Below the pieces are notes generated by a model. The model ran no database searches and was not told the DNA's origin. It saw only the letters and a program-made list of their open reading frames with translations. From contig JAJPHC010000037.1 of the NCBI GenBank assembly GCA_021325515.1, positions 124,001 through 188,000 of the forward strand: DNA of 64,000 bases, read 5' to 3'. This document shows, one piece after another, positions 5,636 through 60,949 of the stretch. Numbering within the stretch: the stretch's first letter is position 1; each line of letters starts with the position of its first letter. The position numbers and the translations under genes are program-made. Source of the stretch: Acidobacteriota bacterium (GTDB lineage Bacteria > Acidobacteriota > Thermoanaerobaculia > Gp7-AA8).

Positions 5636-5742
5636 GGATGGGATGGGACTATGGGACCTATGGGACCTATAGGACCTATGGGCGGACCGTTTCTCCCTAT
5701 AGGTCCCATAGGTCCCATAGGTCCCATAGTCCCATCCCATCC
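5636..5742. repeat. Inverted arrays of a 9-nt unit (ATGGGACCT type), between convergent genes
   Basis: This fills the whole gap between the transglycosylase stop (5631) and the stop of the convergent VWA gene (5744). The left arm (5636-5682) is tandem copies of ATGGGACCT after an outer GGATGGGATGGGACT. The right arm (5695-5742) is the same array in reverse complement. The outer roughly 36 positions pair perfectly, giving a hairpin of about 47 bp with a loop of about 12 nt in either transcript. One copy per arm carries ATAGG in place of ATGGG. A bidirectional transcription end or RNA-stabilising element is the simplest reading. Confidence 0.85.
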
Positions 5743-20773: not shown

Positions 20774-23767
20774 ATGCTCACTCTCCTCGCCGCGGCCACT
20801 CTCTTCGCCGCATCCTCCGAACTGCGCCTCGATCGTGTTCAGGAGTCTCTCACCGGGCTCCATTTCCACTATCAGCAATATGTCGATGGCGTTCCTCTGC
20901 TCGATGGTGACAACACGAATGTGCCGGTGCCGCACGGCGCGATGCATGTGCGCGGCACACTCCGCTTCGTGCAGAAGTCGATCGTGCAGGAACGGCCGCT
21001 GGAGCGGTTTGCGGAGTTTCGCGACGAGAAGAGCGGAGAGCTGCTGCGCCGCGTTCCTCTGTTCTGGACCGCGAAGGGGCGCGTCTTCATCAGCAATCCC
21101 GTCACGCGCCTGAACGATCCGGCGCTGCAGGATCAGAACGACAGCGCGGCCGCGGTGCCGCTGCAGGCCTACAGCGAAGTGGATGTCGATCCGGCGCTCG
21201 GCGGACCGAACGTCGTGATCTCTGATCTCGAGCCGCCGGTGAATCCGGTGATCGATCCCGCGCAGCCGCTGCTGTTCGATCGCAGCCAGCCGCAGTTCGA
21301 GATGGTGAACGCCTGGTACCACATCGATCGCGCGCAGAAATATCTTCAGTCGCTCGGCTACACCGGTCCGCGCCGGCTCGTCGACTACGCGCTCCCCGTG
21401 GATCCGCACGGCGCGAATCAGGCTGACAACTCGTACTACATCGCAGGCGCAACGCCGGGACGCGGCGCGCTCTACTTCGGCGACGGCGGCACCGACGACG
21501 CGGAAGATCCCGACATCATGCTGCACGAGTTCATGCACGCCGTGCAGGACTGGATCGCGCCGGGCGCCTTCGGCGGCGAGTCGCGCGATCAGGCCCGCGC
21601 CCTCGGCGAAGGCTATGCGGATTACTGGTCCTTCTCGTCGACTTACGCAGACGCCGTGAGCAGCGGGCGCGATCCGTTCTGCATCGGCGACTGGGATGCG
21701 CGCTGCTGGCTCGACGACTCGTCCCAGAATTGCGGCTACGCGCCCGGGTCGGATTGTCTTCGCCGCGTCGACAGCACGAAGACCATGTCCGACTACCTCG
21801 ATGCCAATCAGAGCGGCATCGAGCACAAGAACGGCGAGATCTGGTCCTCCGCCTTGCGCGAGATCTTCCTGCGGCTGGGAACGAGATACGGAACCGATGC
21901 AGGCAAGCGGATGATGGACACGCTCGTGATCGAGTCGTACTTCGACACTCCGCCGTCGCCGACGTTTCGCGTGATGGCCGGGAAGCTGATCGACGCGGAC
22001 CGGCTGCTCTACGGCGGCTCGAATGCGACGGCGATCTGTTCCGCGATGACGCTGCGCTCGATTCTCACCGCTGCGGATTGCGATCGCGCACCTCGCGGAG
22101 AAGTGACGTACTTCCAGAGCGCGGATCAGAATCGCCCGCTTCCGGACAACGATCCGCAGGGCGTGCTCTCGACGCTGACGATCACGGACACACGCTCGAT
22201 CAACCGTTTGTTCGTGCACGTTCGCGCGTCGCATCCCGCGCGTGGCAATCTCCGCATCACGCTCGTCGCGCCCGACGGTACGACGGTGCTGCTCAAGCAG
22301 GAGTCGTTCGATATCACGCCTGATCTCGACGTCACGTACGGCCTCGACGCGCAGCCCGCACAGCCGCTCGATGTGCTTCAGGGACATCCGGCCGCAGGCA
22401 CCTGGCAGTTGCGCGTTGCCGATGTCCTCCCGACGGAGCGGGGGACATTTCTGTCGTGGTCTCTCGGATTCGAATTCGTCGGCGATGTGCCGGCGGCGTC
22501 GCGTCCAGTGACGGCGGGTGGCAAGCGGACGATCGCCGTCGCCGGCCATCTGAACGGCGCGAACGGCACGCGCTTCGTCAGCGACGTGAAGATCTTCAAC
22601 CGCGGCAGCACGCCGGCGAACGTGATGCTGATCTACACGCCGAGCGGCGCCAACGGCAACGACACGTTTGCCGCTGTGCGCGCGGTGATCGATGCGGGGC
22701 AGGTCGTCTCCTTCGATGACATCGTTGCGAATGAGATGCAGAGCGTCGGTTCCGGACAGCTCGAGATCGACGGAGATGTCGCGCAACTTGCGATCACGAG
22801 CCGCACCTACACGAGGTCTCCGGCGGGAACCTACGGCCAGACGATTCCAGCGCTGCCGGCCGGCGCAGCGGCATCACCGGCGGTGATCAACTTCGCGGAA
22901 GTGGACGATGACTTCCGGACGAACTTCGGATTTGCGGATGCAGGCGGAGCCGGCGGAAGTATGCACGTCGCGATCACGCGTCTGGGGAGCGATGCCGTCG
23001 TCTATGCATCCGACTTCACGATTCTTCCGTTCTCGCATCAGCAGATTTCGTTGACGGGAGTGCGCGGTGATTTCGTCATCACCATGACGCCATCCAACGG
23101 CGCGAAGATCCTCGGATACGCAAGCGTCGTCGACAATCGCACCGGCGATCCGATCTACGTACCCGCTCAGCCGATTGAGACCTCTGCGCACGACGCGATC
23201 GCGCCGGCAGTGAATGCACCGGGCGCGAATGGCACGCTCTGGAGGACGGATGTCCGAACGACGACAGCCCGGACCATTCTTCGTTTTCGTGACAGCGAGC
23301 GGGAAGCGGGAACGTACGTTGTGCGCGACGTGCTCGGGAGTCTGTTCCAGGCGGTGAATACGAGCGGCGCTCTGCTCGCGAAAATCCCGGCGGGAGAGAT
23401 CGTGACGACGCGGACCTGGACGGACTCCGCGAATGGTTCGTTCGGCCAGTACATCCCTTTCTTCGATGTTGAGAGCGGAACGCGAAGCGCCGATGTTCTG
23501 CAGGTCGAAGTCTCGCCGGCGTTCCGCACGAACATCGGGGTGATGGCGCCGCTGGGCTCGACCGCACATCTCACCGAGACCAACGCCGCGGGCGCGGTGC
23601 TCGCCAGCTACGACGTCGCGATCGCGCCGATGCAGCTCGTGCAGATCCCGATGACGGCGCCCGTGATCAACGGCCGCGTCCACATCGAGGCGACCGCCCC
23701 GGTGATTGCGTATGGGTCGCTGGTGGACAACAGAACGGGAGATCCGGCGTTTGTGGCAGGGGAGTGA
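20774..23767 (+). CDS. Secreted zinc metalloprotease with P-domain and tandem beta modules
   Basis: A 997-residue exported protein with a short signal sequence (MLTLLAAATLFAASS). A propeptide-like region (about 20-130) precedes a gluzincin-type catalytic domain: HEFMH with zinc ligands H251 and H255 and catalytic E252, and a probable third ligand E279 in LGEGYADYWS. This resembles M36 fungalysin-like enzymes. About residues 455-575 form a proprotein-convertase P-domain (LTITDTRSINRLFVHVRASH to GTWQLRVADVLP). The last 410 residues are two copies of a beta-sandwich module (about 585-800 and 810-997), each containing a YxSxVDNRTGDP motif near its end. It probably degrades external protein. The stop codon is fused to a tandem-repeat hairpin. 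Confidence 0.85.
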   Translation: MLTLLAAATLFAASSELRLDRVQESLTGLHFHYQQYVDGVPLLDGDNTNVPVPHGAMHVRGTLRFVQKSIVQERPLERFAEFRDEKSGELLRRVPLFWTAKGRVFISNPVTRLNDPALQDQNDSAAAVPLQAYSEVDVDPALGGPNVVISDLEPPVNPVIDPAQPLLFDRSQPQFEMVNAWYHIDRAQKYLQSLGYTGPRRLVDYALPVDPHGANQADNSYYIAGATPGRGALYFGDGGTDDAEDPDIMLHEFMHAVQDWIAPGAFGGESRDQARALGEGYADYWSFSSTYADAVSSGRDPFCIGDWDARCWLDDSSQNCGYAPGSDCLRRVDSTKTMSDYLDANQSGIEHKNGEIWSSALREIFLRLGTRYGTDAGKRMMDTLVIESYFDTPPSPTFRVMAGKLIDADRLLYGGSNATAICSAMTLRSILTAADCDRAPRGEVTYFQSADQNRPLPDNDPQGVLSTLTITDTRSINRLFVHVRASHPARGNLRITLVAPDGTTVLLKQESFDITPDLDVTYGLDAQPAQPLDVLQGHPAAGTWQLRVADVLPTERGTFLSWSLGFEFVGDVPAASRPVTAGGKRTIAVAGHLNGANGTRFVSDVKIFNRGSTPANVMLIYTPSGANGNDTFAAVRAVIDAGQVVSFDDIVANEMQSVGSGQLEIDGDVAQLAITSRTYTRSPAGTYGQTIPALPAGAAASPAVINFAEVDDDFRTNFGFADAGGAGGSMHVAITRLGSDAVVYASDFTILPFSHQQISLTGVRGDFVITMTPSNGAKILGYASVVDNRTGDPIYVPAQPIETSAHDAIAPAVNAPGANGTLWRTDVRTTTARTILRFRDSEREAGTYVVRDVLGSLFQAVNTSGALLAKIPAGEIVTTRTWTDSANGSFGQYIPFFDVESGTRSADVLQVEVSPAFRTNIGVMAPLGSTAHLTETNAAGAVLASYDVAIAPMQLVQIPMTAPVINGRVHIEATAPVIAYGSLVDNRTGDPAFVAGE

Positions 23768-23872
23768 TGGGACGATGGGACGGATGGGACGGATAGGACG
23801 GATGGGACACAGAGGTCACCGTGTTCTTCCCCATCCGTCCTATCCGTCCCATCCGTCCCATACGTCCCATCC
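23766..23872. repeat. Inverted arrays of a 9-nt unit (ATGGGACGG type)
   Basis: The first unit starts on the A of the protease stop codon (TGATGGGACG). The left arm (23766-23807) and right arm (23831-23872) are near-perfect reverse complements of about 42 bp, with a loop of about 23 nt. A variant unit ATAGGACGG is present at the same position in both arms, so pairing is kept. Downstream (23881-23902) is a separate 7-bp inverted repeat ATTTGCG/CGCAAAT, just before the next gene. Confidence 0.85.
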
Positions 23873-23920
23873 TCTACTCAATTTGCGCAAACCTCCGCAA
23901 ATCCTTATCCTTCGCCGGCC

Positions 23921-24535
23921 ATGTCCGCCCCCGTACTCCCGGAGCCGCAGTCGCTGGCGCAGGTTCCGCAGAAGGTTCTCGAGGAGATCATTCGCCAGCT
24001 CCGCGCGACGCGGAACGACATCATTCGCTACGGCGTCTGGAACATCCGCAACCTCACGGATGACGAATTCAATCGCACCGACGATCGCAAGCTCCTCGGC
24101 TACTTCCGCCAGGATCTGCTGGAGACGCGCTTTCTCTCCAAAGGCCGCCGCATCGACATCATTCAGCTCTGGTCATGGTTCGACAACGAGATGTCGGGCA
24201 CAGAGCCGCTGCTGATCGATGGCGAGGAAGTTCTCCTCAACATTCAGGACAAGGATCTGGAGAAAGTGCGCAAGCGCATTCAGGAGATCCATTCATTCAT
24301 CCCGACGCTGCGCAGCGACGATCTCGAGGCATTCAAGCGGATCAAGTACAAGCTGCGCCGCACGGTGATGCGGCTGACGTACGACCTGCATCATCTGTTC
24401 AAGCGTCTCGAGAAGTACCGCAAGAACTTCTTCATCCAGAGCGGCGTGCTTCGCCCCGAGCGCGTCGCGCTCGAGGCGGTTGCCGATATTCCGGAGCCGC
24501 CTCCGATCGATGACCACGAGCACGAGGACGAGTGA
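23921..24535 (+). CDS. Unknown helical charged protein
   Basis: A 204-residue protein that I do not recognise. It is nearly all alpha-helix by composition, very charged (Arg/Lys/Asp/Glu) and rich in aromatic residues (IIQLWSWFDNEM). There is no signal peptide or membrane segment. A basic coiled stretch, KLRRTVMRLTYDLHHLFKRL, covers about residues 143-165, and the tail is acidic and Pro-rich (PPPIDDHEHEDE). It lies between the metalloprotease hairpin and the convergent giant repeat protein (12 bp apart). Nothing in the context fixes a role. Confidence 0.6.
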   Translation: MSAPVLPEPQSLAQVPQKVLEEIIRQLRATRNDIIRYGVWNIRNLTDDEFNRTDDRKLLGYFRQDLLETRFLSKGRRIDIIQLWSWFDNEMSGTEPLLIDGEEVLLNIQDKDLEKVRKRIQEIHSFIPTLRSDDLEAFKRIKYKLRRTVMRLTYDLHHLFKRLEKYRKNFFIQSGVLRPERVALEAVADIPEPPPIDDHEHEDE

Positions 24536-29466: not shown

Positions 29467-29592
29467 GGATGGGGGATGGGAGTATGGGACTATGGGACCT
29501 ATGGGACCTATGGGACCTATGGGTGGAGGCCGTTCTCCCCATAGGTCCCATAGGTCCTATAGGTCCCATCCGTCCCATCCTCCCCTCCATCC
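29467..29592. repeat. Inverted arrays of a 9-nt unit with adjacent T-run
   Basis: This begins on the base after the TGA of the TIGR02757-like gene. The left arm (29467-29528) holds ATGGGACCT copies, and the right arm (29535-29592) the reverse complement with one ATGGGACGG-type unit and one ATAGG variant. Against the left arm these give mostly G-U pairs. A T-run (29593-29598) follows, so a rightward transcript would show hairpin plus U-tract. About 135 nt of AT-richer leader then precede the kinase gene at 29735. Confidence 0.83.
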
Positions 29593-29699
29593 ATTTTTTC
29601 GCTCCCTTTATCCAACAAAATGTACTCTGCTCTCTGTTCAAGGAACTGAACTCCACTCTTCAATCGTTTGGATTCATACGTTTAGGGCGGTTTTCCTCA

Positions 29700-44387: not shown

Positions 44388-45061
44388 GCCGTTACGATTG
44401 CGGATGGGATGCGGGAGTCGTCCCCATCAACGTTCGCCTCGCCGGGCACAATCGCGAGCACTTCCTCGACGACGGCCTGCTCGCCGTCAATCTGATGGGA
44501 TCACCCTGCGCCGGCAAGACGTCGATTCTGGAGGCGGTGGCGCGCGCGGCGAAAAATCCGCGCAGGATCGTAGCGATGACCGCGGAGCCCGCAAAGGAGA
44601 ACGATGCGAATCGGTTGATGGCTGCGGGCATTCGATCGAAGGCGATCGAGATGCGGCGGGCGGCTCCTCTCGATGCCGAGCTCGTGCAACGCACGCTGCA
44701 TCATCTCGACGCCGGCGACGCCGAGTATCTCTTCATCGAGAGCTGCGGCAATCTCCTCGGCCCCGTCTGCGACTTCGGTCAATCGCTCAACGTCGTCGCG
44801 TTGTCGATCACCGAGGGTGAGGAGAAAGCGCTGCATTTTCCGGAGATGTTCGAGAAGGCCGATCTCGTGCTGCTGACCAAGGCGGATCTGCTGCCGCATC
44901 TTCCGTTCATCAACGTGAAGGCGATCATGGATGCGCTGGCGCAGGCGATGCCTTCGCCGCGCGTGATTTCGATGTCGTGCCGCACGGGGCTCGGTGTCGA
45001 GGCGTTTCTTCGCTGGCTCGAGGCGGCGCGTGCGGCAGCGCTGGAGAAGTTGTTGGTTTGA
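44384..45061 (+). CDS. hypB: Hydrogenase nickel-incorporation GTPase HypB-like
   Basis: A 225-residue SIMIBI GTPase. The P-loop is NLMGSPCAGKTSILEA; other G-motifs and family blocks are TAEPAKENDANRL, FIESCGNLLGPV, LSITEGEEKALHFPEMF and VLLTKADLLPHL. HypB normally inserts nickel with HypA. There is no His-rich N-terminus. The G-domain Cys usually in the NLVCP motif is not in that place here (NLLGPVCD, with Cys three positions later), so metal binding may differ. The start at 44384 overlaps the upstream gene by ATGA. The stop codon A is also the first base of a 9-nt repeat array. Confidence 0.9.
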   Translation: MSRYDCGWDAGVVPINVRLAGHNREHFLDDGLLAVNLMGSPCAGKTSILEAVARAAKNPRRIVAMTAEPAKENDANRLMAAGIRSKAIEMRRAAPLDAELVQRTLHHLDAGDAEYLFIESCGNLLGPVCDFGQSLNVVALSITEGEEKALHFPEMFEKADLVLLTKADLLPHLPFINVKAIMDALAQAMPSPRVISMSCRTGLGVEAFLRWLEAARAAALEKLLV

Positions 45062-45112
45062 TGGGACGGATGGGACGGATGGGACCGATGGGACCGATGG
45101 GTGGAAACGGTC
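45061..45112. repeat. Single-arm array of the 9-nt unit
   Basis: The array begins on the A of the hypB stop (TGATGGGACGG) and runs to about 45103 as two ATGGGACGG-type and two ATGGGACCG-type units. No matching inverted arm follows; only a 6-bp stem GGACCG/CGGTCC can form before the convergent waaF stop at 45113. It looks like a half or decayed copy of the elements at 5636, 23766 and 29467. Confidence 0.8.
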
Positions 45113-60766: not shown

Positions 60767-60949
60767 GGAACGATGAACGATGAACGATGAACGATGAACA
60801 GGGAACGATGAACGATGAACAGGGAACGATGAACGATGAACAAGGAACGTGGCCCTGGCCATGTTTCTCCCTCGTCCCATGTTCATCGTTCATCGTTCAT
60901 CGTTCATCGTTCATCGTTCTCCAACATCGTTCATCGTTCATCGTTCCCT
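60767..60949. repeat. Inverted arrays of a 7-nt unit (ATGAACG)
   Basis: It lies 27 nt after the chalcone-isomerase-like stop. The left arm (60767-60849) is ATGAACG units interspersed with a 14-nt double unit ending AGGGAACG. The right arm (60879-60949) is the reverse complement, with one interruption. Loop region about 30 nt. The arms could form an imperfect stem of roughly 70 bp. Since 7 nt repeats in all frames without stops, it creates false reading frames rich in FIVHRSS. Confidence 0.85.

Follow-up and report, generated by a model that had tools for sequence, protein, structure and literature searches.

A gene-less hairpin of 9-bp tandem repeats behind a protease gene in an Acidobacteriota genome as a probable member of a dispersed element class associated with S23/IVP-type four-helix genes

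A stretch of 64,000 nucleotides from an Acidobacteriota bacterium (GenBank assembly GCA_021325515.1, contig JAJPHC010000037.1, positions 124,001 to 188,000; the whole stretch is called the window) contains a hairpin of inverted tandem repeats at 23767-23872, between two protein genes. On the evidence given below, this hairpin is quite probably a gene-less copy of ∼105 bp, similar to a miniature inverted-repeat transposable element, of a dispersed class of palindromic elements that in their full form carry a gene for an S23/IVP four-helix protein. The features of the locus, in window coordinates, are as follows:

20774..23767, + strand, upstream gene of 997 aa, M36-metalloprotease-like (weak NCBIfam matches, below cut-off)
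23767..23808, + strand, left arm of the hairpin, with units ATGGGACG, ATGGGACGG (twice), ATAGGACGG and ATGGGAC
23809..23829, no strand, loop separating the arms
23830..23872, + strand, right arm of inverted units, with the GTCCTAT variant opposite ATAGGAC
23921..24535, + strand, downstream gene of 204 aa, no NCBIfam match

The hairpin is composed of two inverted arrays of the 9-bp unit AT(G/A)GGACNN, which Tandem Repeats Finder placed at 23766-23808 and 23830-23872 with a period of 9. The protease open reading frame (ORF) ends in a TGA at 23765-23767, and the first unit was found to begin on the A of this stop codon, exactly as the first-pass annotation of the sequence had described. This first unit, ATGGGACG, is 8 nt long, and the 9-nt register holds from 23775 on. 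Positions 23775-23806 and 23830-23861 form 32-nt arms that are 100% complementary at a spacing of 23 nt. GTCCTAT is the partner of the ATAGGACGG unit at 23793, T23841 lying opposite A23795, and the earlier observation of inverted arrays with a variant matched in both arms was thus borne out, since ATAGGAC faces GTCCTAT within 32 paired bases. The contrast that had been drawn between ATGGGACCT and ATGGGACGG units was not upheld; both NN types are mixed inside single elements and mark no family boundary. As RNA, the hairpin was predicted to fold at -97 kcal/mol (z -13.2), with none of 200 shuffles as stable, and the predicted stem would in principle be long enough for excision by RNase III. An Rfam scan of the window returned two tRNAs only and no rRNA, and a plasmid search with the hairpin region gave no match.

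Comparison with relatives indicated that the hairpin was acquired. The 204-aa downstream gene was present in 16 of the 18 family genomes, and in 14 of these 16, this genome included, the tail of the protease lay directly upstream; upstream of the gene in G003 and G012, no such tail was found. The stop-to-ATG gap was free of arrays in 12 of the 14 genomes, at -1 to 71 nt (median 31). Here it measures 153 nt and is occupied by the hairpin. In G016, the gap of 160 nt holds a hairpin built of other units, which is an independent event at the same protease junction. The sequence following the hairpin (ATTTGCGC ... AAATCCTTATCCTTCGCCGGCCATG) is retained in G001 and G009, where the hairpin is absent. 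Judged against these empty orthologous junctions, the hairpin at 23767-23872 is an insertion, and the element would have come to lie behind the protease stop codon in this organism's own lineage. Upstream of the 204-aa gene (loci L317-L330), a conserved TATYCTTCGCCGSC-like stretch stands right before the ATG in most family genomes and is possibly a promoter or leader element.

Some array pairs stood about 600 bp apart, which prompted a search for PF05635 (23S rRNA IVP / S23). Seven PF05635 genes were found in this genome, and all seven are flanked by inverted tandem arrays whose unit differs from gene to gene: GAGTGCT, GGGCGCT, an 8-mer, GAACGAT, AAAATTG, GAACGCA and, on contig C28, ATGGGACNN. 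The last of these is also the unit of the 23767-23872 hairpin. Because the ATGGGACNN unit flanks a four-helix gene, the hairpin was read as a gene-less copy of an S23/IVP-type element. The same anatomy, with the gene between the arms, was observed in other genomes. PF05635 occurred in 27 of 40 relatives' genomes, and the flanks were tested at 33 loci (7 from this genome, 26 from relatives; L110, L115 and L116 were dropped for short flanks). Twenty-eight of the 33 exceeded both the 95% cross-paired null and the 99th percentile of 5000 random windows, the five failing being L103, L117, L118, L119 and L120. The maximum of the cross-paired null is inflated by same-contig pairs and shared units; hence the repeat test with random windows. 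In another class, that of a Thiocystis genome, the family was found in 77 of 369 genomes. Of 30 such loci read, 25 exceeded the 95% null and 8 the 99% null; the random-window cut-off was exceeded by 21, every one of them with period 7. No rRNA was found at the 20 of these 30 loci that were scanned with Rfam. As a separate observation on copy number, G033 gave 25 PF05635 matches and G751 gave 11, seven of them with identical score.

Dispersed extragenic hairpins are also formed by REPINs (PMC3116915), for which, as for the elements here, a single chromosomal protein (RAYT in the case of REPINs) may act in trans, and the genome has seven Y1_Tnp genes. An element of the REPIN or repetitive extragenic palindromic (REP) kind, moved by a Y1 (RAYT/TnpA-REP) transposase, was therefore considered. 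None of the seven Y1_Tnp loci had ATGGGAC arrays within 1.5 kb (single units only), compared with arrays at 7/7 IVP loci, and unlike in REPINs, no RAYT stands beside the arrays and the arms are tandem repeats of a fixed unit. The REP plan is not known to consist of fixed-length tandem units. A REPIN/RAYT origin was accordingly rejected as very improbable.

The length of the repeat unit was found to follow the protein subfamily. The C28 protein matched the NCBIfam model TIGR04258, "four helix bundle suffix," at 73.8 bits (cut-off 40) and TIGR02436 at 28.8 bits (cut-off 24), whereas the five other proteins run (L081 was left out) were plain TIGR02436. TIGR04258 was present in 19 of 396 genomes of the phylum. 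Where arms around TIGR04258 genes were recognisable (L146 was left out of this reading), they had period 9 and a core of mostly GGAC. Scanning one genome per species with a 13-protein alignment yielded 557 relatives. The 80 best were retained and came from Verrucomicrobiota, Lentisphaerota, Bacteroidota, Chlorobiota, Ignavibacteriota, Chloroflexota, Planctomycetota and others. Four or more GAC units with a spacing of 9 were present within 250 bp at 67 of these 80 loci and in 5 of 67 control regions taken 700-950 bp away from the genes (p 4e-22), the associated unit reading A-A/T-A/G-G-G-A-C-N-N. Relative to sequence 500-1500 bp away, exact six-mer repeats near TIGR04258 genes were 13.6-fold at distance 9 and 0.3 at distance 7; near 32 plain PF05635 loci, they were 20.8-fold at distance 7 and 1.5 at distance 9. 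Hence, there are two sub-classes of element, the plain TIGR02436 one with 7-bp units and the TIGR04258 one with 9-bp units of GGAC core.

The letters preceding GAC also follow the protein tree, from which L176 and L209 (internal stop) were left out. In the small clade with the C28 protein, ATGGGAC was seen in four of the six loci with arrays, one of these having ATA. The Verrucomicrobiota/Chlorobiota side of the tree has A/C-A-A/G-GGAC, and Bacteroidota are T/G-rich at these letters. The phylum labels on the tree need 23 changes where the minimum is 14, which suggests, from the tree topology, that TIGR04258 genes may have been transferred between phyla. Two side observations concern the reading frames. 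At L139, L142 and L150, and less clearly at L134, inverted nonamer repeats lie in frame inside the TIGR04258 ORF, between the four-helix part and the suffix. At L087, the frames of the neighbour gene (18-1445) and the TIGR04258 gene (1465-2013) enter the arms and acquire the tails MGLMGRMGPMG and HRSHPSHPSH, which would be annotated as protein.

The predicted fold of a relative's TIGR04258 protein (predicted local distance difference test score, 89) had 2gsc (Z 15.8) and 2rld (Z 14.1) as its best structural matches. A Foldseek search gave no match at E 0.001 or better, 2rld being fourth at E 0.75, and a sequence search of the PDB gave nothing for the C28 protein and 2gsc for L082. Avd of the diversity-generating retroelements (PMC10053308; PDB 4dwl, 8ub8) shares the four-helix-bundle fold and is described there as belonging to a homologous family. 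Retro-movement in trans, in which a group II intron reverse transcriptase (RT) would copy the hairpin RNA with the Avd-like protein as RNA-binding partner, was considered as an alternative. PF05635 resembles Avd, which is an RT partner in those retroelements (PMC10053308), Avd chains were among the structural matches at Z ∼12, and a group II intron RT/maturase gave the genome's sole RVT_1 match, so that such movement would be possible. However, unrelated pectin methylesterase inhibitors ranked equally with the Avd chains among the structural matches, and the Avd model scored far below its cut-off. Unlike in diversity-generating retroelements, no RT of that type was found in this genome; the RT that was found is near no element in the sequence read, and no retro-type features were seen in the elements, which were not systematically tested for these. 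Retro-movement was on balance judged improbable.

Four other hairpins or parts of hairpins were located in the window:

5636..5742, no strand, second nonamer hairpin copy
29476..29594, no strand, third nonamer hairpin copy
45060..45112, + strand, truncated copy with left arm and loop start (GGGTGGAAAC) only, also beginning at a TGA
60768..60946, no strand, gene-less heptamer hairpin of GAACGAT units between two ORFs

The heptamer unit at 60768-60946 is that of a gene-bearing element at the deoA-deoB junction on contig C51. The genome (5.38 Mb in 63 contigs) contains the spaced pair ATGGGACNNATGGGAC 233 + 196 times, an abundance far beyond chance, since the reversed control pattern occurred 0 times. 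On contig C51, in 400 kb chosen regardless of repeats, 7 loci had inverted array pairs of period 7 and 6 loci had pairs of period 9, with none at any other period. Solo heptamer hairpins on this contig share the units AGTGCTG and AACGCAG with gene-bearing elements of the same genome, and three other solo units, AAGAGTG, AATTCAG and AGTGATG, match no gene-bearing element there. Some arrays are one-armed, and in the nonamer element L068 (G000 contig C31:8672-8894), the left arm has 19 units and the right arm 3; therefore, the arms can differ greatly in length.

The dispersal extended to relatives. The three-unit array pattern GGACNNANRGGACNNANRGGAC was found in 13 of 18 gene-carrying genomes, up to 127 + 128 times, with one control match overall. 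Among the 396 phylum genomes, 28 had the array pattern, 19 the TIGR04258 gene and 10 both. Five or more array matches were found in 8 of the 19 genomes with the gene and in 4 of the 377 without it (p 2.4e-9), and the four genomes with more than 100 matches all have the gene. The first dispersed units listed for G008 are of the ATAGGAC type instead of ATGGGAC; the "variant" of the window hairpin is therefore the common unit in this relative, among the units listed.

An orthologous gene-bearing element could be followed at the deoA-deoB junction, where an IVP gene lies between heptamer arms in G000, G006, G007 (left arm partly masked) and G008 and the junction is bare in G005 and G003. In G000 and G007, the left and right arms alike are made of GATGAAC units and in G008 of GATGAAG units, with a mixture of units in G006; unit counts run from about 3 up to at least 19. 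Protein identity is 61-80%, with nonsynonymous divergence (dN) of 0.13-0.36 and saturated synonymous divergence (dS), and these values indicate that the gene is under purifying selection.

The variation in unit number, together with the one-armed arrays, would fit ordinary slippage repeats, in which local expansion and strand switching made the palindromes with no element or protein involved; heptamer repeats with inverted pairs are likewise known in Xanthomonas (PMC4692102). Slippage of this kind would not account for one nonamer core recurring genome-wide and across phyla, for array pairs at periods 7 and 9 only, or for the strong tie to one protein family and its subfamilies, and as a full explanation it was considered improbable.

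The first-pass annotation had proposed that the matched variant reflects either copying of one arm from the other or selection on pairing, and that copies should be compared for co-variation. Hairpins were parsed from 36 loci and the window, giving 29 with the ATGGGAC arm on the left; one apparent reverse-order hairpin was the gap between two neighbouring hairpins. The NN letters agreed in 151 of 199 cells within elements (0.76) and in 3299 of 5741 between elements (0.57; permutation p 0.0001). In only 8 of the 29 elements did the element's own right arm rank in the top three of 29. At the G/A position, 79 G-G, 11 G-A, 11 A-G and 7 A-A pairs were counted, with 3.0 A-A expected (Fisher p 0.012), and in 22 of 29 variant cells the ATAGGAC variant was limited to one arm, unmatched variants being three times as common as matched. 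Co-variation was thus only partly upheld: NN agreement and matched variants (7 versus 3.0) exceeded chance, and the 22 variants confined to one arm are the kind of independent substitution named beforehand as evidence against it. The proposed comparison of orthologous loci, carried out at deoA-deoB, showed both arms differing together between genera (GATGAAC versus GATGAAG).

Pairing as RNA was assessed on the transcribed strand of 15 hairpins, namely, 13 between co-directional genes plus L018, which a crude gene call placed inside a gene, and L239, for which there was an upstream gene only. These gave 587 Watson-Crick, 21 G-U, 16 A-C and 40 other pairs (G-U versus A-C, p 0.51). Selection on RNA pairing was rejected on this lack of a G-U bias among mismatches. 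With 22 of 29 variants unmatched and no G-U bias, arm copying plus drift was favoured over RNA-pairing selection, so that of the two original options the second was left unsupported. As both arms change together between genera, yet variants are unmatched, the arms would have had a shared origin or been homogenised and then drifted independently.

The same hairpins bear on whether the structure is instead a functional 3' hairpin, which as RNA would terminate transcripts, protect them or be a target of RNase III between genes. By the crude gene call, 27 of the 29 are intergenic; a stop codon is nearer than a start in 11 of 13 co-directional cases (median 7 versus 76 nt), convergent gaps are often filled by a hairpin, and the window hairpin would make a very stable RNA stem. 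However, the difference in stop and start distances was not significant (Wilcoxon p 0.08), the mismatches are without G-U bias (21 versus 16), and relatives lack the hairpin at the same junction. A screen for intrinsic terminators, taken as a G+C-rich stem with a T run, found no U-tract at the hairpin, and the single terminator-like site detected, at 23881-23902, falls outside it. A functional hairpin would also leave the link to four-helix genes unexplained, and this alternative was considered unlikely.

Several observations weigh against the reading of the hairpin as a copy of a mobile S23/IVP-type element. G009, G063, G209 and G367 have arrays without a TIGR04258 match, and 9 of the 19 genomes with the TIGR04258 gene have no match to the array pattern. 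The single gene of the C28 kind in G000 is only a modest PF05635 match, at 26.8 bits, below cut-off. Pairing of the two arms exceeded the 95% null at only 21 of 79 TIGR04258 loci (L225, with a short flank, was left out), and in Bacteroidota many loci are poor in units or lack them, 9 of 40 being without an array by a stricter test. The deoA-deoB element, at one site in four genera and with a conserved protein, looks more resident than hopping. Neither a transposase nor a target duplication nor an intermediate of transposition was seen, the empty sites being too diverged for a duplication to be read. Arm copying as the cause of arm likeness, finally, was inferred from statistics only.

In the closest described system, the intervening sequence (IVS) of Coxiella burnetii 23S rRNA, three tandem heptamers (GACAGAT) precede an S23p ORF and the terminal stem measures 28 bp; this IVS sits in helix 45 and has been called a selfish element (PMC4990558). 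The elements described here are similar in having a small S23p-type ORF inside an inverted-repeat stem with tandem heptamers; they differ from the IVS, as far as it is described there, in lying between protein genes, in having arrays in both arms and in having many gene-less copies. The hairpin at 23767-23872 accordingly does not have the 23S rRNA location of an IVS, since it stands between two protein genes.

Cyanobacterial short tandemly repeated repetitive (STRR) sequences are intergenic tandem 7-bp units. Heptameric simple sequence repeats are reported from Xanthomonas and Nostoc, with 70-75 convergent inverted pairs in Xanthomonas (PMC4692102), and TAACTGA repeats from Beggiatoaceae (PMC4679880). 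All of these share with the present elements the intergenic tandem 7-bp unit; here, in contrast, the unit is tied to a gene and a 9-bp sub-class exists. X. campestris, of a heptamer host genus, is the source of the solved IVP structure 2gsc, which makes for a link that can be tested. The texts of the two heptamer papers (PMC4692102, PMC4679880) contain neither "S23" nor "intervening." The 23S rRNA IVP is named only in a figure legend on CRISPR adaptation modules in one paper (PMC10910872) and appears solely as a gene annotation in another paper, in the part available (PMC11637426). In the open-access literature, no publication joining tandem repeats and an S23/IVP gene was found, subscription papers and preprints being mostly uncovered, and a search there for TIGR04258 or "four helix bundle suffix" returned 0 papers.

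A mechanism consistent with reading the hairpin as a gene-less copy can be outlined. The four-helix protein would bind the stem formed by the repeats, either in RNA or in extruded DNA; this stem would be what is copied and inserted, landing in slack sequence beside stop codons. Unit numbers may then shift by slippage, and the arms may be kept alike when one is copied from the other during hairpin replication or repair, with mutational divergence following. More broadly, a hitherto unnoticed, phylum-spanning superfamily of mobile elements can be proposed, in which an S23/Avd-like protein propagates tandem-repeat hairpins, the protein subfamily sets the length and core of the unit, and rRNA IVSs are members that landed in rRNA; we regard the case for and against this proposal as evenly balanced. 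If it is true, each genome would have a repeat code particular to it and defined by the protein, along with a set of gene-less copies.

Many bacterial genomes encode PF05635/TIGR02436 proteins, for which no known role outside rRNA IVSs was found in the literature searched, while heptamer repeats have been reported from several bacterial groups unexplained; here, the repeats and the genes are the same thing. As the genes sit between the repeats and the unit depends on the subfamily, two orphan observations become one testable system. Judging from its gene's position between the arms, the four-helix protein may be a candidate binding partner for the repeats, and the system gives a source for those intergenic hairpins that may be turned into spurious repeat proteins by gene prediction.

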